This document shows positions 43,902 through 54,694 of a DNA stretch of 64,000 bases, one piece after another. The position numbers were made by a program, and so were the translations under genes. This DNA comes from Pseudomonas frederiksbergensis. Lineage in GTDB: Bacteria; Pseudomonadota; Gammaproteobacteria; Pseudomonadales; Pseudomonadaceae. Below the pieces are notes generated by a model that ran no database searches, was not told the DNA's origin, and was given only the letters and a program-made list of their open reading frames with translations. Position 1 is the first letter of the stretch. Each line of letters starts with the position of its first letter. The stretch lies in contig NZ_CP017887.1 in assembly GCF_001874645.1 (NCBI RefSeq), positions 1 to 64,000 on the forward strand, written 5' to 3'.

Positions 43902-45029
43902 TCACGCAGCGTGCCGTTTGGATTGAGGAAAGCCAAACCGTCCGAGCTGGATCAAAACATCATTCCAATCCACAGACTTTTCACCTTCCGGAACAGTTAA
44001 CGGAGGAGTGTGACGAGCACACTTCAACCCTAACGCCCAGGCACGAGCTTGCAAAGCTTTTGCAGCCTTCTCCCCTCCACCAGAAACGTCTTTATCCTCC
44101 CAGATGGCAATGCCTTTGAAGCCAGCTGGCGGGACAAATGTTTCCATCAGACCTGTATTGACCAGTGGCCATACTGGAACTCCCATAGCCATCGAAATGG
44201 CCAAAGCAGTTTCAATACCCTCGGCGACATGCAAAATCTCACCAGGTTTCCCCAGTTGAATTGAACCGCCTGTCACCGAACGATCGGAAGGAATTGGGCA
44301 CATCTTTTTAACGCTTTCAACAGGAGCTTTCTCACCTTTGGTGGTCAGAAAAATCCTGTGAAGTGTCACCGGAACACCTGCTGCATCGCGGATCAGCGCG
44401 ACAATTGCCGGGAATTCACCTTCACAAACACCGTCCTCGTTGTACGAGCGAAGCTTCGGGTGAAACCGCAACGTGGCGGCGTAACCAGGAGCATCCCAAT
44501 TAAGAATTTTTCTTGAGCTCAGATAAAGCCTTGCGGGCTCAGCCTGAACCGCACTTAGAGCTAAGGTTTCGCTCCAGATTTTTTTCAGGATGTAGCGAAT
44601 ACGCACATCATTTTCTTTCTGATCTTGAGCTTGTTTCTCTCTCAACCGTTGTATTTGCGCAGCTTCCTGCTGATTGTCATGTGCTGCTTTTCTTTCATCT
44701 TTACGGTCTTTGATGTTGAGGTACTCCCCAACCTCTTCAACCGCATCAGCAAAGACATATCTACCGTTGTAGGATTGGCGATACCACATGAGCAAAGCGA
44801 AACCATCTCCTTTGAACCCACATGTGTTGCAACCACCAGCTCCTTTAAATGCTCCGTCACCATTTTTCTTGAGCATTCTGAAACCATCCACTCCCCCATG
44901 CACAGGGCATGGGGAACGTTTACCAACTTTCTTACAAGATGGGCCAATTCCAGGAACAATGGCACTCAGTATTTCAAGCCACTTACCTTGAGCAGCTTCG
45001 CGTACAGTTTTAGCATTCAAGTTTCTCAT
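43902..45029 (-). CDS. Plasmid primase with zinc ribbon and Toprim domain
   Basis: 375 residues. The N-terminal zinc-binding part reads CKKVGKRSPCPVHGGVDGFR, then GGCNTCGFKGDGFALLMWYR; the C-terminal Toprim domain has ILHVAEGIETALAISMAMGV (the Glu) and FKGIAIWEDKDVSGGGEKAA (the DxD-like pair E-D-K-D). It resembles the primase part of P4 alpha-type and conjugative plasmid primases but lacks a helicase. It would prime lagging-strand or transferred-strand synthesis. A structured leader precedes its start. Confidence 0.88.
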   Translation of the reverse strand: MRNLNAKTVREAAQGKWLEILSAIVPGIGPSCKKVGKRSPCPVHGGVDGFRMLKKNGDGAFKGAGGCNTCGFKGDGFALLMWYRQSYNGRYVFADAVEEVGEYLNIKDRKDERKAAHDNQQEAAQIQRLREKQAQDQKENDVRIRYILKKIWSETLALSAVQAEPARLYLSSRKILNWDAPGYAATLRFHPKLRSYNEDGVCEGEFPAIVALIRDAAGVPVTLHRIFLTTKGEKAPVESVKKMCPIPSDRSVTGGSIQLGKPGEILHVAEGIETALAISMAMGVPVWPLVNTGLMETFVPPAGFKGIAIWEDKDVSGGGEKAAKALQARAWALGLKCARHTPPLTVPEGEKSVDWNDVLIQLGRFGFPQSKRHAA

Positions 45030-45098
45030 GGTGTACCTCCAGTGTTAGCCCAACTGGGGCTTCCCAAAACCCTCCAAGAGGGCTTCGGGAAGCCCCAG
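45030..45098 (-). promoter_or_regulatory. Structured 5' leader of the primase gene
   Basis: AGCCC (45047-45051) can pair with GGGCT (45057-45061), but GGGCT is also part of a 12-bp perfect stem, CTGGGGCTTCCC (45054-45065) with GGGAAGCCCCAG (45087-45098). The ribosome binding site GGAGG lies between the start codon and these elements. Related in style to the other leaders of this region, though the RBS-closing stem is not evident here. Confidence 0.6.
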
Positions 45099-45126
45099 AC
45101 AGGGTTTTGGAATCTGGGGGTACACC

Positions 45127-45159
45127 TTCCCTAAAGGGGGGGTGTCCCCCTTTAGGGAA
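45127..45159 (-). terminator. Strong 14-bp hairpin between small genes and primase
   Basis: TTCCCTAAAGGGGG (45127-45140) pairs perfectly with CCCCCTTTAGGGAA (45146-45159) across GGTGT. No U tract follows on the minus strand, so it may be an attenuator or RNA-stabilising structure rather than a simple terminator. Confidence 0.6.
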
Positions 45160-45179: not shown

Positions 45180-45320
45180 TTACTTCTTCGGATCCGGCGT
45201 GCTTGGTTTCTTAGTCGGTGGAATGTCGCAGAGTTGCTGCATCATTCTGACGAATGAATCATCAGACAACGCTGCGACAACAACCCGATTAGTATTTGTC
45301 GTCTTTTGATGGTTACTCAT
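45180..45320 (-). CDS. Small protein, 46 residues
   Basis: ATG 45320 follows GAGGAC by 5 nt and encodes MSNHQKTTNTNRVVVAALSD then DSFVRMMQQLCDIPPTKKPS and a Lys-rich end. It begins 9 nt after the stop of the 40-residue gene upstream, so the two form an operon. No family known; too short for standard gene finders to report reliably. Confidence 0.55.
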   Translation of the reverse strand: MSNHQKTTNTNRVVVAALSDDSFVRMMQQLCDIPPTKKPSTPDPKK

Positions 45321-45329
45321 GTTGAGTCC

Positions 45330-45452
45330 TCAATAAACGACAATGACGCGACCACATAAGAGAACCTCAACAACATGAGATCCGGCCAAAAAATGGACCT
45401 GATCAATTTGTTGAAGTCCAGCTATGCGGAAGCTTGAGATTTCAGCAGCCAT
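45330..45452 (-). CDS. Small protein, 40 residues
   Basis: ATG 45452 (AGAGGA 5 nt upstream) encodes MAAEISSFRIAGLQQIDQVH then FLAGSHVVEVLLCGRVIVVY. The ribosome binding site can pair with GAGG/CCTC in the leader (45459-45462 with 45468-45471). The first copy of the 106-bp repeat lies upstream and probably carries the promoter. Unknown function. Confidence 0.55.
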   Translation of the reverse strand: MAAEISSFRIAGLQQIDQVHFLAGSHVVEVLLCGRVIVVY

Positions 45453-45526
45453 GGGATTTCCTCTATTCGAGGCGAAGCTGCTCCCCACCGGGAAGAAGCC
45501 CCGCGTGGGTGTGCCTTTCGGCGATG

Positions 45527-45632
45527 GGTGGGTGTTTGTTTTGAGTGTTCACCGGTCACTATCAAACGATCAACCTCAAGGCTGAACGCAAGAATCTGCT
45601 TTCGTCGGCGCGGTGGCCGCGGAAGAAGACTC
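45527..45632 (-). repeat. 106-bp repeat, copy 1 (candidate promoter module)
   Basis: About 90 percent identical to 48271-48376 and in the same orientation. Both copies stand upstream of minus-strand operons and end before their leaders. On the minus strand both contain TTGCGTTC-GCCTTGAGG and TTTGATAGTGAC, which could hold -35/-10 elements. Copy 1 lies directly after the terminator of the preceding gene, as expected for a new promoter. Confidence 0.7.
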
Positions 45633-45637
45633 TAAAA

Positions 45638-45659
45638 AAGCCCCCTAGATAGGGGGCTT
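45638..45659 (-). terminator. Terminator of the 45-residue gene
   Basis: AAGCCCCCTA (45638-45647) pairs with TAGGGGGCTT (45650-45659) around GA; TTTTTTAGA follows on the minus strand. It lies 3 nt after the 45663 stop. Confidence 0.88.
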
Positions 45660-45662
45660 GAA

Positions 45663-45800
45663 TCAATGTGTCTTTTTACGATCGTCGAGGTGATAAGCGA
45701 GCCAGAAGGCTGCGCCTATTACGCCGATCGTGAAAATCATTGCAGATGTCACGTATATACCACCAGCGTCCTTACTAATCAGTCTCTCAGCAATTTTCAT
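45663..45800 (-). CDS. Small membrane protein, 45 residues
   Basis: ATG 45800 with GGAGG 5 nt upstream encodes MKIAERLISKDAGGIYVTSA then a membrane span MIFTIGVIGAAFWLAYH and a charged end DDRKKTH. Followed at once by a terminator. Its leader has the two-state hairpin layout. Single-span plasmid peptide of unknown role. Confidence 0.65.
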   Translation of the reverse strand: MKIAERLISKDAGGIYVTSAMIFTIGVIGAAFWLAYHLDDRKKTH

Positions 45801-45851
45801 ATCGCCCTCCAAGGCTTCATTAGCGGTGAGAGCGACCCCGCTAGGGGTGCT
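45801..45851 (-). promoter_or_regulatory. Two-state leader of the 45-residue gene
   Basis: Fold A: TCGC (45802-45805) with GCGA (45832-45835), enclosing the GGAGG ribosome binding site (45806-45810). Fold B: ACCCC (45835-45839) with GGGGT (45844-45848), extended by AGC (45831-45833) with GCT (45849-45851). Bases 45831-45835 serve both folds, so they exclude each other. Confidence 0.65.
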
Positions 45852-45906
45852 TCCCCGCGGGTTATGTCGTTAAATTGTTTTTACAGCGCTACAGCGGCCT
45901 TCCTGC

Positions 45907-46125
45907 TTACGCGGCACATGCCGGAGCAAGCCACTGAAGGTGCCATTCGTAGCAATTCAGAAAAACTCTCCGTTCGTTTTGCTTCGGCATGATCTCCTTG
46001 TAATACCAAGGAACTCTTGTCACGAACGTTGAACAGAAAACGTCTTTGTAGAACACGACGTCAAAGTTGTCGGTTTCTCCAGTAACGTCTGGTTCTTTAC
46101 GTGCAAATACTTTAATCGGCTGCAT
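45907..46125 (-). CDS. Hypothetical 72-residue protein
   Basis: ATG 46125 with CAGGAG upstream encodes MQPIKVFARKEPDVTGETDN then FDVVFYKDVFCSTFVTRVPW. Aromatic-rich and beta-like; no family recognised. Its leader repeats the RBS-closing stem and CCC/GGG hairpin layout of its neighbours. Confidence 0.6.
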   Translation of the reverse strand: MQPIKVFARKEPDVTGETDNFDVVFYKDVFCSTFVTRVPWYYKEIMPKQNERRVFLNCYEWHLQWLAPACAA

Positions 46126-46171
46126 GTCCTACTCCTGTGAGCGGGACTTCGCCCAAAGGGACTGAAATCCC
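46126..46171 (-). promoter_or_regulatory. Two-state leader of the 72-residue gene
   Basis: Fold A: GTCC (46126-46129) with GGAC (46144-46147), enclosing AGGAG (46132-46136). Fold B: CCC (46152-46154) with GGG (46158-46160), extended by GGGA (46143-46146) with TCCC (46168-46171). The GGGAC segment is shared, so only one fold can form. The weakest of the set. Confidence 0.5.
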
Positions 46172-46225
46172 AATGGGTTGCCAATTGGCGGCTAGATACC
46201 TGAAAGATGCAGGTCCAGATTTGAG

Positions 46226-46552
46226 TTACAAGTGAACAAGAGGCGACTCAAAAGTGAACCAATTTCCACACCGTACGATGTAACGGTGATCAATGATTCG
46301 GTCGTTAAATCGCTTGGAGCTTTCCACTTTTCTTGGCTCACCACAGTCTGTCAGATAGGCGTGAGCAACAGCCAACATCGCTGATGGTGCTCGGACCTCG
46401 ATTTTGTGTTCAGTGAGGGCATTCCTAACTAGATAAGCTGAGAAGCCAGATTGACTGTAGTGTCGCGACAGCGAACTCGTTTCCGAGTACGCAACCACTG
46501 GGGCTTCCCAACTCGGCGAATTGTTGAGAGATGGTTCAGCGTAGAGATCCAT
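46226..46552 (-). CDS. Hypothetical 108-residue protein
   Basis: ATG 46552 lies 6 nt after the stop of the upstream gene; a GTG at 46561 is possible. The product includes SGFSAYLVRNALTEHKIEVR and DHRYIVRCGNWFTFESPLVH. No leader of the structured type precedes it, so it is the second gene of an operon with the 104-residue gene. Unknown family. Confidence 0.55.
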   Translation of the reverse strand: MDLYAEPSLNNSPSWEAPVVAYSETSSLSRHYSQSGFSAYLVRNALTEHKIEVRAPSAMLAVAHAYLTDCGEPRKVESSKRFNDRIIDHRYIVRCGNWFTFESPLVHL

Positions 46553-46557
46553 GCTGC

Positions 46558-46872
46558 TCACCAATCAAAGCTAGGAAGCTCTTCGTGACAGTTCCCATCC
46601 TTATCAAACGCAACAATCAAGAGTCCTTCATCCAGGGCTGCATCCAAAAGCGATGCAAGCTCGTTACTGATGCCAGACAGCTTGATCTTAGCCACGGTGA
46701 TGGCTCCAATCATAATCACGAAGCCATGTTTAGAATCAAACACATACGGTGCCTCTCCCTCTCCCATCACGTATCGTGCAGCGAGACGCTCAAGGCACTT
46801 GGAATCAGCCTGTGTGATGTGTGCGGTGGAAAGTTCGACTGCTTGAACAGCAGCAATATCCAGAAGTTTCAT
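46558..46872 (-). CDS. DUF5983-like small plasmid protein
   Basis: 104 residues: AVQAVELSTAHITQADSKCL then ERLAARYV and GFVIMIGAITVAKIKLSG. The STAHIT-x-D opening and a following F-V/I segment resemble DUF5983 proteins common on plasmids, whose role is unknown. ATG 46872 follows CGGAG; the leader has the clearest 8-bp RBS-closing stem of the set. Confidence 0.6.
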   Translation of the reverse strand: MKLLDIAAVQAVELSTAHITQADSKCLERLAARYVMGEGEAPYVFDSKHGFVIMIGAITVAKIKLSGISNELASLLDAALDEGLLIVAFDKDGNCHEELPSFDW

Positions 46873-46919
46873 GTCGTATCTCCGATAGCAGGGGATACGA
46901 CCCCAAAGGGGTAGGATCC
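46873..46919 (-). promoter_or_regulatory. Two-state leader of the DUF5983-like gene
   Basis: Fold A: GTCGTATC (46873-46880) with GATACGAC (46894-46901), a perfect 8-bp stem with GGAG (46880-46883) at its loop edge. Fold B: ACCCC (46900-46904) with GGGGT (46908-46912) plus GGAT (46893-46896) with ATCC (46916-46919). Bases 46893-46901 belong to both, so the folds are mutually exclusive. Confidence 0.7.
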
Positions 46920-47077
46920 CCCAGGGTGGTTGTTTAAGGTGGCTGTTTTTTTTCTCAGGTCAGCAGCCTGATCAGTGCCTGGCGCCTCAAGGCGACAGTC
47001 AATGTTCTGCAGGTACCGCGATTGGTTAGAAGAATAACCAGCAGACTCCGCAAATCAAAGGCTCGATAATTTAAAAC

Positions 47078-47109
47078 CCCCGCACAGGGGGTTGTCCTCC
47101 TGTGCGGGG
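47078..47109 (-). terminator. Terminator of the 243-residue gene
   Basis: CCCCGCACAGG (47078-47088) pairs with CCTGTGCGGGG (47099-47109); on the minus strand GTTTTAAATT follows. It lies 11 nt after the gene's stop. Confidence 0.88.
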
Positions 47110-47119
47110 ATTACCGTTT

Positions 47120-47851
47120 TCACAGCCGCTTCGCAATCCAGCTCACGCGATCGACTGTAACTGGTTCTTCTCCAATGACATTGCCTAATTCGTCAATGAC
47201 ATTTTGCATGACTTGTACAGGCACTTTTCCGATTCGCTTAAGCGCAATTCGGTCTCCAATATCAATGTCATATTCAACCATGCAGCGTTCCAAATCGACT
47301 CCCCATACCTCAAGGGTACCGAGGCGTATCATATAGCTGATTTTTTCGCCTTTCTGGTGCTTGTATGGAAACGCACCAAAGGACGTAACCTCCCCCTTCA
47401 ACGCATCAGCCCACACATCGATCTCCGGTGTGGTGTCGGCGCAGTTTTGGAAGTGCTGCGCGTAGGCCTCCATATCCGCCTGCAGAGACTCGTTGTCGAC
47501 CTCTTGCTGATAGTCGTACACGCCTTCAGGAGTGTTCTGGCTCAATACACGATCCCACAGCTTGTCTTCCTCCGAACGGCTGGGCAAAGCCTTTATACGG
47601 TCGGGCGCAGACAACTGCTTAGGCCGAGCATCCTTGGTACGTCTAAAGGAGCGTAAAGAACCTTGGCTTTTAAGGGCGGCGGCACGTTGCTGAACCTCAA
47701 GACGGCGTTGACTGATCACTTCGTTTTCGCGGGCTGCAGATTCATTCAACAAACGAATTCTGTTGGCCAGCGGAGACTCTTCCAGAGAAGGCTCTACCAT
47801 ATGTTGAACGTAGCTTGCAGGTACAGTGCTATCGAATTGTTGAAAACGCAT
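47120..47851 (-). CDS. Hypothetical protein with plasmid relaxase/primase-type C-terminal domain
   Basis: 243 residues from ATG 47851 (AGGAG 9 nt upstream). The N-terminal half is charged and helical. The C-terminal ~70 residues, SYMIRLGTLEVWGVDLERCM then GDRIALKRIGKVPVQVM, follow the WGVDLE-x-A-x-GDRI-L-x-GxxPV pattern found at the end of large conjugative relaxase/primase proteins (LPD7-type). A stand-alone version may bind partner proteins or DNA. It has a structured leader and its own terminator. Confidence 0.6.
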   Translation of the reverse strand: MRFQQFDSTVPASYVQHMVEPSLEESPLANRIRLLNESAARENEVISQRRLEVQQRAAALKSQGSLRSFRRTKDARPKQLSAPDRIKALPSRSEEDKLWDRVLSQNTPEGVYDYQQEVDNESLQADMEAYAQHFQNCADTTPEIDVWADALKGEVTSFGAFPYKHQKGEKISYMIRLGTLEVWGVDLERCMVEYDIDIGDRIALKRIGKVPVQVMQNVIDELGNVIGEEPVTVDRVSWIAKRL

Positions 47852-48200
47852 GGTGTTTCTCCTGGTTGGAGGTAGCTACACCCCATTGGGGTGTTGAACC
47901 CCGATCATCGATTTCTATCTCGTCTTCGGAGCTCATGCAGTAGTTGTTTCGTGCAGCTACCGCAAAAGCGTTCGATTCAGACTCCTCACCAAATGCTCGG
48001 ACGCATTGACTGAACTCCAATCCATTTTCCTTCGCCGCCGACAGGATCTCGATCGGACTGGCGATGGCTTGAATTTCGTCGAGAAGCGCTTTGACACGAC
48101 CATCAGCGTCGCCCGGTGAATTCACCACTCGCAAAAGCGTGGACGCGAGCAACGATTGATCGTCTAGGGAGAGCAGAAGAATAATTTTCTGGTTTGACAT
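47829..48200 (-). CDS. Hypothetical 123-residue protein
   Basis: ATG 48200 (MSNQKIILLLSLDDQSLLAS) has GGAG 8 nt upstream; the longer frame to 48296 reads through the leader and is unlikely. It contains RVKALLDEIQAIASPIEILS and an acidic SSEDEIEID stretch. The last ~24 residues are translated from the next gene's leader and its first codons, so the original stop may have been lost. No family recognised. Confidence 0.55.
   Translation of the reverse strand: MSNQKIILLLSLDDQSLLASTLLRVVNSPGDADGRVKALLDEIQAIASPIEILSAAKENGLEFSQCVRAFGEESESNAFAVAARNNYCMSSEDEIEIDDRGSTPQWGVATSNQEKHHAFSTIR
47852..47894 (-). promoter_or_regulatory. Two-state leader of the 243-residue gene
   Basis: Fold A: GGTGT (47852-47856) with ACACC (47878-47882), with AGGAG (47859-47863) in the loop. 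Fold B: ACACCCC (47878-47884) with GGGGTGT (47888-47894), a perfect 7-bp stem with an ATT loop. ACACC is common to both, so formation of B frees the ribosome binding site. Confidence 0.7.
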
Positions 48201-48243
48201 GGGTACGCTCCAGATTGAGGGCGTACCAACCCAGAGGGTGGTA
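48201..48243 (-). promoter_or_regulatory. Two-state leader of the 123-residue gene
   Basis: Fold A: GGTACGC (48202-48208) with GCGTACC (48221-48227), a perfect 7-bp stem with a 12-nt loop and GGAG at its edge (48208-48211). Fold B: ACCC (48229-48232) with GGGT (48236-48239), extended past a bulged A by TACC (48224-48227) with GGTA (48240-48243). TACC is shared, so the folds exclude each other. Confidence 0.7.
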
Positions 48244-48270
48244 GCCCTATGGGTTTGAAATACAGCGAGA

Positions 48271-48376
48271 GGTGGGTGTTTGTTTTGAGTGATCACCAGT
48301 CACTATCAAACGATCAGCCTCAAGGCCGAACGCAAGAATCTGCTTTCGTCGACGTCGACGCCGCGGAAGAAGACTC
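48271..48376 (-). repeat. 106-bp repeat, copy 2 (candidate promoter module)
   Basis: Second copy of the element at 45527-45632. It stands upstream of the leader of the 123-residue gene and downstream of the methyltransferase stop, again where a promoter for a minus-strand operon is expected. Confidence 0.7.
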
Positions 48377-48427
48377 GATAAAACTGTGGCCCCTAAAGGC
48401 CACAGAGATTACATCATCGAAATGTTA

Positions 48428-50020
48428 CTACAGCAACATCTGCTGAGTAGATCCAACCGCCACCACGGAGGGCAGCATCAGGGATGCCGGGTTAAGATTT
48501 TGTGTGAAATCAGGCCCAGCAATGAGGCTCTTTACATCGAGGCTCAAAGAGTCCCGAGAAACAGGTAATTCAATGTTCGTTCTGAACAATGAGAGTCCGA
48601 TTTCTTCACCTATCGAGTCAAACTGCTCGTAGACGACACTTTGCCCCATAATTTCGTGTGCTGCAGTCTCCGATACCCCTTCAGTTACAACCGCAGGGAT
48701 CGTTTTCACTCGTCCGTGCTCAAGCCGTGTGAACAGCCGGAACAGGTCAGGATTTTCAGGGTGAATCAAGAAGGGTTCAGTCGATCGGCCTTTAAAGTAG
48801 TGTCGACCGATCGTTCCACAACCGCCCTCATTTCCTGTCAAACGCTGAAGTGCGAAGTTCTTTCCTGTCGCCTTATCTTTTACCGCCTTCTCAGACAAAT
48901 ACGTGTATGGCTTCCAACGCGGTGAGTCCAAAGGAACGGACTCAAGGATCTCATTGATGGATGCTTCACGAACCTTATGGGGTTTGAGGTTTTCGAAGGA
49001 AAACAGATCTCCCAGACCAGGAGTATAGGCAATCATCACCATTCGTTTCCGTTTCTCAAGCGCGCCGAAGTCGGAGCCATCGAGCACTTTTTCTTTGAGC
49101 ACGTATCCCAGCGATATCAAAACGCTGCGAATCACCGCCATCGAGGCAGTACTCTGGTACTCAGGCACGTTCTCCAGAACGACGATGGCAGGATTGGTTG
49201 CCTTCACCCATGCCAGGTAGTCAAAAAATAACGTTCCTGCGCTGTCATGCTCTTCAGCAAACTCTAAATCGTTCTTGGCCCGCCCCGCTTTTGAGGCCCC
49301 TACGCAAGGCACCCCTCCTGTCAAAATGTCGCTCTGGGGGATATTTCCCTCCAGACTGACATACCGAATATCGGAACAAATCGCAATAGAGTCCGCCTGC
49401 CAAAGATCCGGGTTGTTGCGCAATGAGGCGTTGAGGTACTCAGCTTCTAACTCAACACCCACTTGCACAAACGAACCAACCCCTGCTCGCAGTAGCCCAG
49501 AGTGGATGGCCCGATCGAGCACACCACCACCGTGGAATAGGCTGGTAACGGCCAATTTTTCGCCGCGTGCCAGCTTTTCTTTCAGACGCTTGAGTCGTTC
49601 TCGGATTTTGGTTTGCAGCTGTAGTGCCGTTATGACAATACGACCGTTTCGAATCGCAATCCGGACCTTCTCGTCATCCTCAAACACCTGGCGTATCTCA
49701 TCGCTGCGAAGTTGAAGCAGCGGATGCACTATCCCGTTACGCTCGCGCTTTGAGACAGTGAATGTGCTGCCGACAAAGCTCGTGGGTACCGCGATCAGCT
49801 CCAGGCGCCTGGCGGCTTTATCAGAACGAATCGTGTACTTGTCTCCGATCCGCAGACCTCCGTGAGTTAGCTTTTGGCCTTCGAAATTGCACCTCACTTG
49901 ACCACCTAATTGCATTGCCGCTGACCAGTCGTTTGCATTCGTGCTGACCACCCAATTGCATAGCCACTGACCGGTCATTTGCATTCGTACTGAGCACCCA
50001 ATTGCATTCGACTTGACCAC
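48428..50020 (-). CDS. DNA (cytosine-5) methyltransferase, 5' end replaced by IS21
   Basis: The frame holds a C5 methyltransferase: motif I KLAVTSLFHGGGVLDRAIHS, a VGVELEAEYLNASLRNNPD acceptor region, motif IV TGGVPCVGASKAG with the catalytic Cys, motif VI AIVVLENVPEYQS, and a long C-terminal target-recognition part. The first ~45 codons (50020 to about 49890) are translated from IS21 terminal repeats, so the native N-terminus is lost; residues from FEGQKLTHGGLRIGDKY onward look original. No cognate restriction enzyme is visible, suggesting an orphan protective methylase. Expression would need an IS-borne start. Confidence 0.8.
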   Translation of the reverse strand: MVKSNAIGCSVRMQMTGQWLCNWVVSTNANDWSAAMQLGGQVRCNFEGQKLTHGGLRIGDKYTIRSDKAARRLELIAVPTSFVGSTFTVSKRERNGIVHPLLQLRSDEIRQVFEDDEKVRIAIRNGRIVITALQLQTKIRERLKRLKEKLARGEKLAVTSLFHGGGVLDRAIHSGLLRAGVGSFVQVGVELEAEYLNASLRNNPDLWQADSIAICSDIRYVSLEGNIPQSDILTGGVPCVGASKAGRAKNDLEFAEEHDSAGTLFFDYLAWVKATNPAIVVLENVPEYQSTASMAVIRSVLISLGYVLKEKVLDGSDFGALEKRKRMVMIAYTPGLGDLFSFENLKPHKVREASINEILESVPLDSPRWKPYTYLSEKAVKDKATGKNFALQRLTGNEGGCGTIGRHYFKGRSTEPFLIHPENPDLFRLFTRLEHGRVKTIPAVVTEGVSETAAHEIMGQSVVYEQFDSIGEEIGLSLFRTNIELPVSRDSLSLDVKSLIAGPDFTQNLNPASLMLPSVVAVGSTQQMLL

Positions 50021-50096: not shown

Positions 50097-50840
50097 TCAG
50101 TTTTTCCTGTTCTTGAGTTTGCGCATCGATTCGCCCTTGAGCGGAATCACATGCGCCTTGTGAACGATTCGGTCCAACACCGCATCGGCAATCGTTGGAT
50201 CCGTGAAAAGGTCGTACCATTTTTCTTTGGGGTACTGACTGGTGATCAGCAAGGAGCCATTGCGTGATTGCTGATCGATGACATCCAAAAGGAAGGGGCC
50301 GAGCTGGGAGTCAATACCGCCGATTCCCAAGTCATCAATGATCAGGAGTTGCGCCTTGATCAATTGCCTGCGCAGTTTCGGAAGCGTGTGATCCGCGTAG
50401 GACAGTGTTATGTCTTCAAATAGCTGCGTGGCTGTACGGTAATAGGTATTGAACCCGAGGCGGCAGGCCTGATTGCCAAAGGCGCAAGCCAACCAGGTTT
50501 TTCCGGTACCGGTAGCACCAGTCAAAATAAGATTCTGCCGGCGACGTAACCATTCACAATCCGCGAGGGTCATGACCATGTTGCGATCCAGCCCTCGGCT
50601 TGCCTTGTACTCGACACCTTCCAGTGTGGCCTGTGACTCGCGCAGCTTGGCGCTTTTCAGAAAGCGCTCAACCTTACGTGTTTCACGCTCACTGGTTTCG
50701 GACTCCATCATCAGACCGAGACGCAAATCGAATGTCTGTTTCTGAAGGTTCGGTTGGTTCAGCTGATGTTCATAGGCACGGGCCATGCCTTTCAGGCCTA
50801 GCTCAAGCAGTTGCTGGCTGGTATTTAACAGCGGCTTCAT
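50097..50840 (-). CDS. istB: IstB-like transposition helper ATPase
   Basis: 247 residues, AAA+ ATPase of IS21: Walker A LILTGATGTGKTWLACAFG, Walker B QLLIIDDLGIGG, sensor LLITSQYPKEKWYD, then VLDRIVHKAHVIPLKGESMR. It binds target DNA and activates IstA. Complete; overlaps istA by 4 nt. Confidence 0.95.
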   Translation of the reverse strand: MKPLLNTSQQLLELGLKGMARAYEHQLNQPNLQKQTFDLRLGLMMESETSERETRKVERFLKSAKLRESQATLEGVEYKASRGLDRNMVMTLADCEWLRRRQNLILTGATGTGKTWLACAFGNQACRLGFNTYYRTATQLFEDITLSYADHTLPKLRRQLIKAQLLIIDDLGIGGIDSQLGPFLLDVIDQQSRNGSLLITSQYPKEKWYDLFTDPTIADAVLDRIVHKAHVIPLKGESMRKLKNRKN

Positions 50841-52435
50841 ACAGGCTTCTCCTCTTGGGTGGCGTAGTAGGTCGCTCCCCGGATATTCGAATGCTCAATG
50901 GCGGGAGTCGTAATCATTGGTGGACGTCGAAGGTCCGAGCCATTACGTAAAATGGCGCGCAACCGTTCGGAGCTGACAATGCCAAGCGAGTTCGCATACG
51001 CGCAGGCAGACTCCAGGCGCTGATGAGGTATCTGTTCCTTGCGCACATCTCGTTTGAGCGCGGTCACAGCCCTCAGCCCTGTTGCAAAGTCTCGACGGTC
51101 TTCCAAATTGCGCTGTACGTAGAGGTGAGTTTCAGGGCCAATGTCTGCCGCCCACGCCAGCAAGGCTGGTGGTTGAGAATCCTGAAATTGATGGTGGTTG
51201 GGAGCCAAGTGCTCACGCAAGGTGCTGACCCCAGGTGTGGTATCGATGCGATGACTGCTGATCACCCGTCGCTGGAAGGTGACCTCTAGCCAATCGGCAT
51301 TTACGCGCAAGTCCACCAGTTGATTAGCATGGTGATACGGCACCGAGTAGGACCGACCTTGAAACTCGACGTGGTAATCACCGCCAATACGCACCTGGTA
51401 CACCCATTGGCTATAGCTGTATTGCCTTTCAGGGAGAGCCTGTAAGGCGGGTGCATCCGTTTCTTGAAATCGTACCAGCCGACTCTTGGGGTAGGTGCGC
51501 GTGACCCGCTGGTTTAACTGTTCCATCCAGTAGGTGATCTGCTGATTTAGTTCGTCCAGAGAGAAAAACGTCCGATCACGTAATCGTGCCAAGACGAAGC
51601 GTTGGACGATTTGCACACCTACCTCGGCCAGCGACTTATCTTTTGGCTTTCGTGGCCGGGAGGGAATGATGGTGAAGCCGTAGTGCTCGGAGAGCTCTGA
51701 ATAGGCCTTGTTGAGGATGAGACAGTTACGGGTAGTTTTGATTACCGCGGCCTTCAGGTTGTCCGGTACGACAAAGCGCGGCACACCGTCGAAGTGTTCC
51801 AGTGCTTCGATGTGGCAACGAAGCCAGTCTTGTGTCGTTTGGCTGGCAACGGCTATTGCAAACAAGTACCCGGATGAGCCCAGTGTGGCAACAAATACTT
51901 GGCAGGAGGCGATTTCACCGGTGCTCGGATCGGTAATGGGCATAGTGCGTCCGCAGAAATCGACAAACATCTTGTCGCCTGGTGTATGCACTTGCCGCAT
52001 GCTGATTTTCTGCGTTTTCACCCAGGCCCCGTAGTGCCGAGTGAACTGCGCGTAAGACACCCCGTCGGGCTCTTTTTCACGAAACTCTTGCCAGAGCAAG
52101 TCCAGCGTCATGTCACGAAAACGCAGTTGCTCATGAATCTCATGCCACTGCGGTACGACTTTGCGCAGAGCCGGAGCACGACGATCGTAGTTAAAACGCA
52201 AGCTGAAGGTGGCGTTGTCGAGCACCTTGAGGGATTCCCAGCTTTCACCACTCAGCACGAGTTGATCACGCAATGCCCGTACCGTGTTGTGCGATACCTG
52301 CACGATTTGAGCGATTGCCCGGTTTGAGAGCGTAGAGCCGCTGGCAATGCGAAGAACTTCGCGCTGTTCATCAACGGATAACTTCATAATTTCTCCCCTC
52401 GACGGGCACAAGAAGGCCTCGCCGGTCGCGATCAA
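50837..52435 (-). CDS. istA: IstA-like IS21 transposase
   Basis: 532 residues: N-terminal HTH (STLSNRAIAQIVQVSHNTVR), DDE core starting GDKMFVDFCGRTMPI (first Asp), a second Asp in PRFVVPDNLKAAVIK, and Glu in KPKDKSLAEVGVQIVQRFVL, then the C-terminal SH3-like region with YHVEFQGRSYSVPY. Complete and probably active. Confidence 0.95.
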   Translation of the reverse strand: MIATGEAFLCPSRGEIMKLSVDEQREVLRIASGSTLSNRAIAQIVQVSHNTVRALRDQLVLSGESWESLKVLDNATFSLRFNYDRRAPALRKVVPQWHEIHEQLRFRDMTLDLLWQEFREKEPDGVSYAQFTRHYGAWVKTQKISMRQVHTPGDKMFVDFCGRTMPITDPSTGEIASCQVFVATLGSSGYLFAIAVASQTTQDWLRCHIEALEHFDGVPRFVVPDNLKAAVIKTTRNCLILNKAYSELSEHYGFTIIPSRPRKPKDKSLAEVGVQIVQRFVLARLRDRTFFSLDELNQQITYWMEQLNQRVTRTYPKSRLVRFQETDAPALQALPERQYSYSQWVYQVRIGGDYHVEFQGRSYSVPYHHANQLVDLRVNADWLEVTFQRRVISSHRIDTTPGVSTLREHLAPNHHQFQDSQPPALLAWAADIGPETHLYVQRNLEDRRDFATGLRAVTALKRDVRKEQIPHQRLESACAYANSLGIVSSERLRAILRNGSDLRRPPMITTPAIEHSNIRGATYYATQEEKPV

Positions 52436-53502: not shown

Positions 53503-54694
53503 GGAAGGTCTGAAGTAGTCAGCGATTTTTGATGCCCTCGTTGGTAGAGGTTCAAAAAACGCTGGCTGGTCAGAAATCAGACCTTTCCTATTCTTAACTC
53601 ATCGTTTCACCCTTGAGCGACGCCTTTTCAAGGCGCTTTTCCCGCATTACAGGCGCATCTCTCCCGCGACCAGCAGCCGTTTTCGCATCATCCACAGGTT
53701 CGACAGGGCAAATAGCGTGGCCTGTTGCGCGGTGTTTTTCATCAGGCCGCGAAAGCGCACTTTCGTATAGCCAAACTGACGCTTGATCACTCGGAATGGA
53801 TGCTCAACCTTCGCCCGGACTTGTGCTTTCGCATATTCGATTTTGCGCCGCAGGCGCCCGATCAAACTCTTTTTCGCGTGTTTTTTATAGCTGCTGGGCC
53901 GTGCGGCAATCGACCAGATCATCTTGCGATTCTGATGCTCAGGACGCTTGTCCACACCGGTGTAACCGGCATCGCCAGACACGTATGATTCCTCGCCATG
54001 CAGCAACTGATCGACCTGCGTCACGTCCGCCACATTGGCCGCCGTGCCCACCAGGCTATGCACCAAACCCGACTCGGCATCGACGCCGATATGCGCTTTC
54101 ATCCCGAAGAAATACATGTTCCCCTTCTTCGTCTGATGCATTTCGGGGTCGCGTTTACCCTCTTTATTCTTGGTCGAACTCGGCGCATGAATGATCGTCG
54201 CATCGACCACCGTACCTTGGCGCAACATCAGGCCACGGTCGCCCAGATAACCGTTGATGACCTGCAAAATCCCGCCGGCCAACTCATGTTTTTCCAACAG
54301 ACGTCGGAAGTTGAGGATCGTGGTTTCATCGGGAATCCGATCCAGATGCAGCCCCGAAAACTGGCGCAGGATAGTGGTCTCGTACAGCGCTTCTTCCATC
54401 GCCGGATCGCTGTAGCCGAACCAGTTCTGCATCAGATGAACCCGCAACATCGCCATCAATGGATACGCCGGACGACCACCTTCGCCTTTCGGATAATTCG
54501 GCTCGATCAAGGCAATCAGACCCTTCCAGGGCACGACCTGATCCATCTCGATCAGGAAACGCTCGCGGCGGGTCTGCTTACGTTTGCCGGCGTACTCGGC
54601 ATCGGCGAAGGACATCTGTTTCATCGGGGCTCAACCGTCGTGTTCGGATCAGGCGGCTATTTCACCAAATCTGAAAGTCTTTTTCAGAGTTTCC
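53503..54694 (-). mobile_element. IS5-family insertion sequence with CTAG target duplication
   Basis: About 1192 bp. Ends are imperfect inverted repeats: GGAAGGTCTGAAGTA at 53503 and the complement of GGAAACTCTGAAAAA ending at 54694. CTAG flanks both sides (53499-53502, 54695-54698), as expected for the 4-bp duplication of IS5 elements. It appears intact. Confidence 0.88.
53647..54624 (-). CDS. IS5-family transposase
   Basis: 325 residues with the IS5 DDE layout: QGTVVDATIIHAPSSTKN (first Asp), SYVSGDAGYTGVDKR (second Asp), and RAKVEHPFRVIKRQFGYTKV (Glu with the Y-2-R-3-E type spacing). Full length and in frame; the element looks functional. Confidence 0.95.
   Translation of the reverse strand: MKQMSFADAEYAGKRKQTRRERFLIEMDQVVPWKGLIALIEPNYPKGEGGRPAYPLMAMLRVHLMQNWFGYSDPAMEEALYETTILRQFSGLHLDRIPDETTILNFRRLLEKHELAGGILQVINGYLGDRGLMLRQGTVVDATIIHAPSSTKNKEGKRDPEMHQTKKGNMYFFGMKAHIGVDAESGLVHSLVGTAANVADVTQVDQLLHGEESYVSGDAGYTGVDKRPEHQNRKMIWSIAARPSSYKKHAKKSLIGRLRRKIEYAKAQVRAKVEHPFRVIKRQFGYTKVRFRGLMKNTAQQATLFALSNLWMMRKRLLVAGEMRL

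Follow-up and report, generated by a model that had tools for sequence, protein, structure and literature searches.

Two-hairpin leaders predicted to sequester the Shine-Dalgarno sequence in a gene block of a Pseudomonas plasmid and on related elements

Why do neighboring plasmid genes begin behind leaders that differ in sequence but keep a single scheme of pairing? This question is raised by the first 64 kb (64,000 nucleotides; here called the window) of C2, a 371-kb plasmid-like contig (NZ_CP017887.1) in the two-contig genome of Pseudomonas frederiksbergensis, a member of the Pseudomonadaceae. Five minus-strand genes in the window, with ATG start codons at 48200, 47851, 46872, 46125, and 45800, each have an ATG-proximal stem around the Shine-Dalgarno (SD) sequence, as the original prediction for this DNA had claimed, and the stems are visible by eye (GGTACGC/GCGTACC, 7 bp; GGTGT/ACACC, 5 bp; GTCGTATC/GATACGAC, 8 bp; GTCC/GGAC, 4 bp; and TCGC/GCGA, 4 bp). 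According to the same prediction, the distal arm of each stem also belongs to an upstream CCC-loop-GGG hairpin, and translation would be off in one fold and on in the other.

We computed the extent of this leader family, its consensus, its above-chance pairing, the sequestration of the SD, the set of genes served, and the association with MOBH relaxases. The family is real, widespread, and apparently selected. Its members probably act as translational attenuators that sequester the SD, with each cistron having its own, and they belong to conjugative plasmids and integrative elements of the MOBH type.

Consensus and detection of the leaders

The window region resembles the Pseudomonas fluorescens plasmid pQBR55 (85.7% identity, 51% of the query covered), which carries F-type conjugation genes. 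Folds of pQBR55 sequences revealed a common pattern 5′ of ssb, recT, exo, and the genes for a CobS-like ATPase, a DUF3150 protein, and a VWA/CobT-like protein, among others; it was not found ahead of the transfer genes shown in that comparison. The pattern is a leader of about 55 to 80 nt with two hairpins. The first, H1, has the consensus (A)ACCC-N3/4-GGGG-loop-CCCC-N3/4-GGGG, and the second, H2, adjoins it and extends as far as the ATG, with the SD paired to an arm rich in C and U.

A regular expression for this pattern matched 7 sites on the minus strand of the window, with 0.1 expected (six within 45 to 48.3 kb and one stray at 11.5 kb), and 1 site on the plus strand, with 0.2 expected. 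On the coding strand of the pQBR55 stretch it matched 13 sites, compared with 0.2 expected in a first-order Markov sequence, two of the 13 having no clear gene downstream. Across C2 the counts were 18 against 2.0 expected on the minus strand and 2 against 1.6 on the plus strand, and the leader run continues at 65 to 76 kb and at 138.6 kb.

Seventeen leaders, including those at 48200, 46872, 46125, 45800, and 45452 in the window, were used to build a covariance model, R1, which comprises 60 positions and only 5 base pairs. At an expectation value (E) of 1e-4 or lower, R1 gave 34 matches in six sources, training leaders included, and in pQBR55 (L001:9648-25058) 12 of the 17 annotated genes had a leader, for two of the 12 at an in-frame start that differs from the annotation. 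Pooled matches numbered 512, of which 488 end at an ATG, and 462 of these 488 precede an open reading frame (ORF) of at least 40 aa or one running off the locus; R1 itself ends in ATG, and the pool includes training leaders, near-identical copies, matches up to E 1 at five loci, and chance-like hits from outside the class. Reduction to less than 75% similarity left 150 leaders, a set that still contains three loci dropped elsewhere (L105, L117, and L118), together with two weak hits on the minus strand and 10 of the training leaders; the sets used for SD accessibility and block composition, like the list of downstream proteins, omit L105 and seven chance-like hits from outside the class. By the regular expression only, consensus-like sequence was also seen upstream of a traV-like gene in both plasmids (L001:11829-11907 in the region of L003, minus strand, with traV annotated at L003:11310-11831; and C2 98976-99054, minus strand), where R1 lists none at E 1.

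Apparently selected folds and predicted pairing of the ribosome-binding site

The minimum-free-energy fold consists of exactly two domains in 93 of 98 non-redundant leaders, and the gap between H1 and H2 is 0 to 2 nt in 72 of these 93. The CCC-loop-GGG hairpin thought to share an arm with the SD stem is usually the 3′ half of the longer H1, which in the predicted folds stands side by side with H2. RNAalifold recovered few pairs from unguided alignments because stem lengths vary, and spacer, chimera, and motif-anchored tests were used in its place.

The outer CCC/GGG and inner GGG/CCC blocks of H1 are strongly conserved, and the spacers between them carry almost no sequence information. Among leaders selected by their H1 blocks alone, 64 of 117 spacer cells pair in the 39 with 3-nt spacers (shuffled mean, 42.9), as do 140 of 244 in the 61 with 4-nt spacers (shuffled mean, 101.1), and 0 of 2000 shuffles reached either count. 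In 19 leaders of equal length, the covariation score was 0.231 versus 0.086 after shuffling, with 23 cells changed on both sides versus 10.5 (0 of 500 shuffles in each case), and shifting the partner by 1 to 3 columns lowered every covariation measure. Both the spacer and the covariation tests ignore relatedness. For H2, native halves folded at a mean of -12.71 kcal/mol versus -7.50 kcal/mol for chimeras of different leaders, the native form lying below the median chimera in 94 of 98 leaders and below all 30 chimeras in 40; these figures come from sequence-defined halves, since the fold-defined halves used earlier favored the native fold. The pattern is also kept in several leaders of 35 to 39% G+C. 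The expectation that pairing would be kept as the sequence changes, drawn originally from the five window genes, is supported, and the folds look selected.

In the predicted folds the SD is closed. Its unpaired probability has a median of 0.007 and is below 0.3 in 119 of 131 leaders, and the start codon is mostly free (median, 0.98). Freeing the SD costs a median of 7.0 kcal/mol (interquartile range, 4.3 to 8.9; 136 of the 150 leaders). In three annotated stretches, genes with the H1 motif have a higher cost than genes without it: Pseudomonas psychrotolerans (7.7 versus 3.6 kcal/mol; 21 and 23 genes; p = 7e-5), IncC (6.3 versus 1.8 kcal/mol; 9 and 13 genes; p = 0.003), and, by a small margin, Pseudomonas aeruginosa PA83 (5.6 versus 4.2 kcal/mol). 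Blocking the 5′ arm of H2 raised SD access by more than 0.3 in 90 of 131 leaders. SD-sequestering leaders such as RNA thermometers likewise close the ribosome-binding site with a hairpin, as predicted for H2. Unlike these, the present H2 costs about 7 kcal/mol to open and is preceded by a sequence-constrained H1, and the leaders have no Rfam match: the window gave 0 matches at gathering score, and L057, L122 with L123, and L125 with L063 gave, at relaxed E-values, only weak matches far below the gathering scores.

Carriers, served genes, and the leaders of the window

The search with R1 extended the family far beyond the five leaders. At E of 0.001 or lower, R1 matched 77 of 298 genomes from the Pseudomonadaceae, which represent 15 of 19 genera. 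For genomes drawn at class level the figure was 51 of 369, from 48 of 272 genera, and at phylum level it was 23 of 299, with 11 of these 23 lying outside the class; the draws share members, among them the genome to which the window belongs. Among eight loci inspected outside the class, seven look like chance and one, L107, 5′ of an ArdC-type protein (PF08401), is convincing; clear leaders are also present on p1 of Azospirillum sp. TSA2s, an alphaproteobacterial plasmid. Other carriers are an Escherichia coli IncC plasmid, Vibrio sp. YMD68, Pseudomonas aeruginosa PA83, Pseudomonas mandelii JR-1, and P. psychrotolerans YY7. Relatives of the IncC bet gene are present at 62 loci; leaders occur at 26 of the 28 most similar, the two leaderless ones being contigs of less than 5 kb, and at 0 of the other 34; the leaders therefore follow the element, not the gene.

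That element is associated with the MOBH relaxase. A TraI_2 match was found in 64 of the 77 Pseudomonadaceae genomes with leaders versus 40 of the 221 without (Fisher p = 1.3e-24, a test that treats related genomes as independent), the profile also matching 3 of 14 control genomes; in 10 of the 13 leader genomes without TraI_2, even the top-ranking leader match has an E no better than 2.6e-5. PLSDB types pQBR55 and the IncC and Vibrio plasmids as MOBH.

The served genes form a DNA-repair and establishment block. Among 143 downstream proteins (the best 25 of 39 families), we counted RecT 12 times, DUF3150 and AAA_5 10 times each, CbbQ_C 9, RadC 8, YqaJ exonuclease and CobT 7 each, SSB and DUF3577 3 each, DUF3085 2, and ArdC, ArdA, Antirestrict, and cytosine methylase once each, the ArdA and ArdC members having been checked. 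These 143 are the aligned part of 182 downstream proteins; the alignment leaves out a TraN start (leader E 0.42), the proteins of two hits on the minus strand, and the smallest proteins. Many of the 143 come from loci found via bet, which biases the counts toward bet neighbors. A first, overlapping set of 109 proteins gave DUF5983 7 times, DUF3577 and RadC 4 each, DUF3150, CobS-like, and CobT-like 3 each, RecT and YqaJ 2 each, and SSB once.

Several leaders of other carriers have features of their own. Two IncC leaders, L122:11886-11952 ahead of the CobS-like ATPase gene and L122:16721-16787 ahead of the DUF3150 gene, have an identical H1 sequence, which suggests duplication or conversion of a leader. 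A very long, near-perfect hairpin lies just 5′ of an annotated 47-codon gene in the Vibrio plasmid (L123:15909-15987), and a similar one precedes L122:11545 in IncC.

In the window, all leaders lie on the minus strand. The leader of the 123-aa gene at 48200 spans 48198 to 48255, with H1 at 48255-48228 and H2, including the SD, at 48227-48202; it scores 41.5 bits with R1 and folds at -29.4 kcal/mol, and freeing its SD costs 8.1 kcal/mol intact and 7.9 kcal/mol with the 5′ arm of H1 blocked. The corresponding costs are 7.1 and 7.8 kcal/mol for the leader of the 104-aa DUF5983 (PF19419) gene at 46872 (46870 to 46928; H1 46926-46902, H2 46901-46873; 47.3 bits), 5.1 and 3.4 kcal/mol for that of the 72-aa gene at 46125 (46123 to 46179; H1 46177-46152, H2 46147-46126; 39.5 bits), and 8.8 and 7.8 kcal/mol for that of the 45-aa gene at 45800 (45798 to 45863; H1 45861-45837, H2 45836-45801; 33.8 bits). 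The leader of the 243-aa gene at 47851 (47849 to 47892), which is outside the training set and was missed by the regular expression, scores 22 bits (E 1.2e-4) and has a counterpart in pQBR55 at L001:20838-20898. Its H1 consists of the 3′ half only (ACACCCC-AAT-GGGGTGT), with the SD hairpin downstream, and in the absence of the 5′ CCC of H1 the pairing ACACCCC/GGGGTGT competes with GGTGT/ACACC, giving two folds; depending on the length folded, freeing its SD costs 5.1 and then 4.5 kcal/mol, or 1.6 and then 5.1 kcal/mol.

Related leaders had also been proposed for the 40-aa gene at 45452 and the toprim primase gene at 45029 (PF13362, PF08273). The former (45450 to 45510) is a member by sequence, matching both the regular expression and R1 (33.2 bits) and having a pQBR55 relative at L001:23451-23511. 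The latter (45027 to 45106) is a possible divergent member, with a regular-expression match, a weak R1 score of 16.2 bits (E 0.017), and an H1 that is extended internally by a very long hairpin (-48.4 kcal/mol). Between the gene at 45320 and the primase leader, at 45118-45156 (minus strand), there is a long GC-rich hairpin (CCCTAAAGGGGG...CCCCCTTTAGGG) that looks like an H1 lacking the H2 that should follow.

In the R1 search of the window no leader match was obtained for the genes at 46564 and 45320 or for the methylase ORF at 48428-50020, and most of its leader-served genes had no Pfam match. Transposase-like ORFs at 50097-52435 and 53647-54624 (minus strand; an IstA/IstB-like pair and an IS5-type ORF) separate the leader block of the window from its continuation at 65 to 76 kb of C2.

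Upstream of the 48200 leader, at 48271-48310 (minus strand), lies a DNA box, TTTGATAGTGACTGGTGATCACTCAAAACAAACACCCACC, that marks a candidate promoter or operator region, and a second copy in the window is found at 45527-45566 (minus strand), upstream of the 45452 leader. In the form AGTGACTGGTGATCACTCAAAACAAACACCCACC and its variants, which contain the inner palindrome GTGATCAC in the case of AGTGACTGGTGATCACTCAAAACAAACACCCACC, the box has six copies on C2, each 5′ of a leader match (the others at 71896, 74975, 75887, and 138722, minus strand), and six in the pQBR55 stretches (L001 9416, 13389, 20340, 22600, and 23395; L002 22735). It is possibly a shared promoter or operator. The box is included in a 107-bp stretch (window 48271-48377) that precedes three leader units, is 94% identical to C2:138683-138789, and has a visible repeat at about 45530-45640.

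Probable attenuation, competing explanations, and meaning

The consensus, the size, and the breadth of the family are new, and the literature searched, with most subscription papers outside its coverage, gave no account of a leader family like this one. The assumption that nothing of this kind had been described nevertheless needs amending, since a precedent has been reported for one position. According to a review (PMC4542580), a strong translational attenuator lies upstream of bet in SXT (Garriss et al. 2013, cited there) and is also found in IncA/C plasmids, its functionality there still to be investigated; the SXT/IncC operon with bet and exo has SetCD/AcaCD-dependent promoters. The IncC leader at L122:14448-14525 scores 32.3 bits with R1 and ends at the ATG of the annotated bet gene. 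The gene position and the proposed effect are the same as for that attenuator, which is described for one position, whereas the two-hairpin consensus here stands before most cistrons of the block in many elements. The papers on the SetCD and AcaCD regulons (PMC4344509, PMC4207636) use "attenuat-", "hairpin", and "translation" 0 times in their main text.

For members other than the bet leader, we infer attenuation from the predicted pairing. H2 would pair the SD with the upstream C/U-rich arm and keep the ribosome-binding site closed by default. H1 would fold on its own under sequence constraint, in the space that separates H2 from the preceding stop codon. In 66 of 127 leaders it starts 0 to 40 nt past that codon, the commonest distance being 10 to 20 nt (30 of 127), and in 38 of 127 it lies 120 to 250 nt away; no such ORF was present in 13 of 140. 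This frequently places H1 right after the point where a ribosome terminates, so that it may shield H2 from ribosomes finishing the upstream gene; it may insulate H2 in this way, dock a factor, or do both. In SXT/IncC, where the bet/exo operon is transcribed from the SetCD/AcaCD-dependent promoters, the leaders would limit the output of every protein until some factor, or none, opens H2.

The first of the rivals, which we consider unlikely, is the two-state switch, the fold A/fold B scheme proposed at first. Here, the 3′ GGG arm of H1 would pair with the anti-SD arm of H2, or H1 would split into two small hairpins, leaving the SD exposed, and a ribosome or factor on the 5′ arm of H1 would flip the fold. 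The alternating C-G-C-G-C-G blocks do make neighbors complementary, and the spacers measure at least 3 nt, as small hairpin loops need, in 120 of 128 cases for the first half and in 114 of 128 for the second. RNAalifold on 18 bet/recT leaders produced a 4-bp pairing of the 3′ G-run of H1 with the C-run of H2 that involves only the inner part of H1, so a protein- or ribosome-driven rearrangement would be compatible with the equilibrium calculations; however, that alignment has variable H2 arms and may be misaligned. When the leaders were folded with the 5′ arm of H1 blocked, SD access rose by more than 0.3 in only 1 of 131 leaders, and the SD cost moved both ways, with a median change of 0.0 kcal/mol (down by more than 1 kcal/mol in 38 of 136 leaders and up by more than 1 kcal/mol in 45 of 136). 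On these figures we rejected the two-state fold, with 47851 excepted and the bet/recT result to the contrary. Translation is still the likely target, the SD being paired in a structure that ends at the ATG; it is the mutually exclusive folds that lack support, apart from leader 47851 and the pairing chosen in the bet/recT alignment, which is of the kind first proposed.

It is rather improbable that the leaders serve mRNA processing or stability, with H1 and H2 as RNase sites or decay barriers between cistrons and the pairing of the SD incidental. The leaders do occupy the intergenic gaps of a long run, and the distance at which H1 most often follows the upstream stop codon would suit such a role. 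On the other hand, H2 is locked to the SD and the ATG, native halves beat chimeras that keep the SD block, and the attenuation reported for SXT (PMC4542580) is translational.

A DNA-level role is quite improbable. The CCC-N-GGG dyads would then be operators, or Frpo-like single-stranded DNA promoters in the entering strand, and the CCC/GGG blocks are indeed dyads in DNA. In the case of Frpo (PMC11541004), hairpins also lie 5′ of early-entry genes such as ssb, and some leader-served genes (SSB, ArdA, ArdC, and methylases) resemble the leading-region genes described there; unlike those hairpins, the present ones hold the SD and end at the ATG, which leaves no 5′ untranslated region as room for a promoter. 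The H1 spacers also pair across the hairpin, and a separate candidate transcription box lies upstream of some leaders.

Rsm/Csr-regulated leaders in Pseudomonas are hairpins with a GGA-containing SD, and control of this kind, with GGA in hairpin loops as suggested originally and perhaps via a plasmid-borne CsrA, can be dismissed as very improbable: csrA homologues are present on the window plasmid (C2:113598-113756) and on pQBR55, and 107 of 149 leaders have at least two GGA, but the GGA is paired here. The last one, at the SD, falls completely inside an apical loop in 1 of 149, ANGGA occurs at the SD in 46 of 149, both features coincide in 0 of 149, and the H2 loops are 6% G. Two other factors were considered. 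A ProQ-bound RNA was rejected, with 0 matches to PF04352 (the ProQ/FinO domain) in the window's own genome, and AcaB-type proteins beside the block were considered as a common factor, the eight neighboring proteins giving no Pfam match.

Several results weigh against translational attenuation by a single family. In PA83, the presence of the H1 motif makes little difference to the SD cost (5.6 versus 4.2 kcal/mol; 25 and 12 genes; p = 0.047). About 43 to 45% of the H1 spacer cells are unpaired, and it is therefore chiefly the GC blocks that hold H1 together; the number of pairs in which both sides change shows no excess (4 versus 3.7 in shuffles). The predicted fold of the 45452 leader is not the two-hairpin form, nor does the primase leader have it, and freeing the SD of the latter costs only 1.4 kcal/mol. 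Because five window leaders were used for training, their R1 scores are not independent. PLSDB gives MOBP for PA83, MOBH plus MOBP for Azospirillum p1, and no relaxase for P. mandelii and P. psychrotolerans. Finally, the SXT attenuator (PMC4542580) would belong to the present family judging from its position only.

Translational attenuation by SD-sequestering leaders nevertheless remains the explanation that we favor. A bolder extension, possible but less likely than not, is a post-transcriptional regulon over many MOBH-type elements, in which one RNA-binding factor would read the strand-specific CCC/GGGG blocks of H1 and open H2. If so, the factor would be element encoded or conserved in Proteobacteria and would act simultaneously on dozens of mRNAs. 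Proteins of recombination, anti-restriction, and methylation would then be made in a joint burst, for example, after entry into a new cell. This raises the testable question of which factor reads H1 and when the served genes are translated. The same leader precedes genes for recombination, single-strand binding, anti-restriction, and methylases on plasmids and integrative elements throughout the Proteobacteria, the much-studied IncC group among them. It would turn one reported attenuator into a family-wide rule, and it provides a sequence signature for finding such gene blocks.

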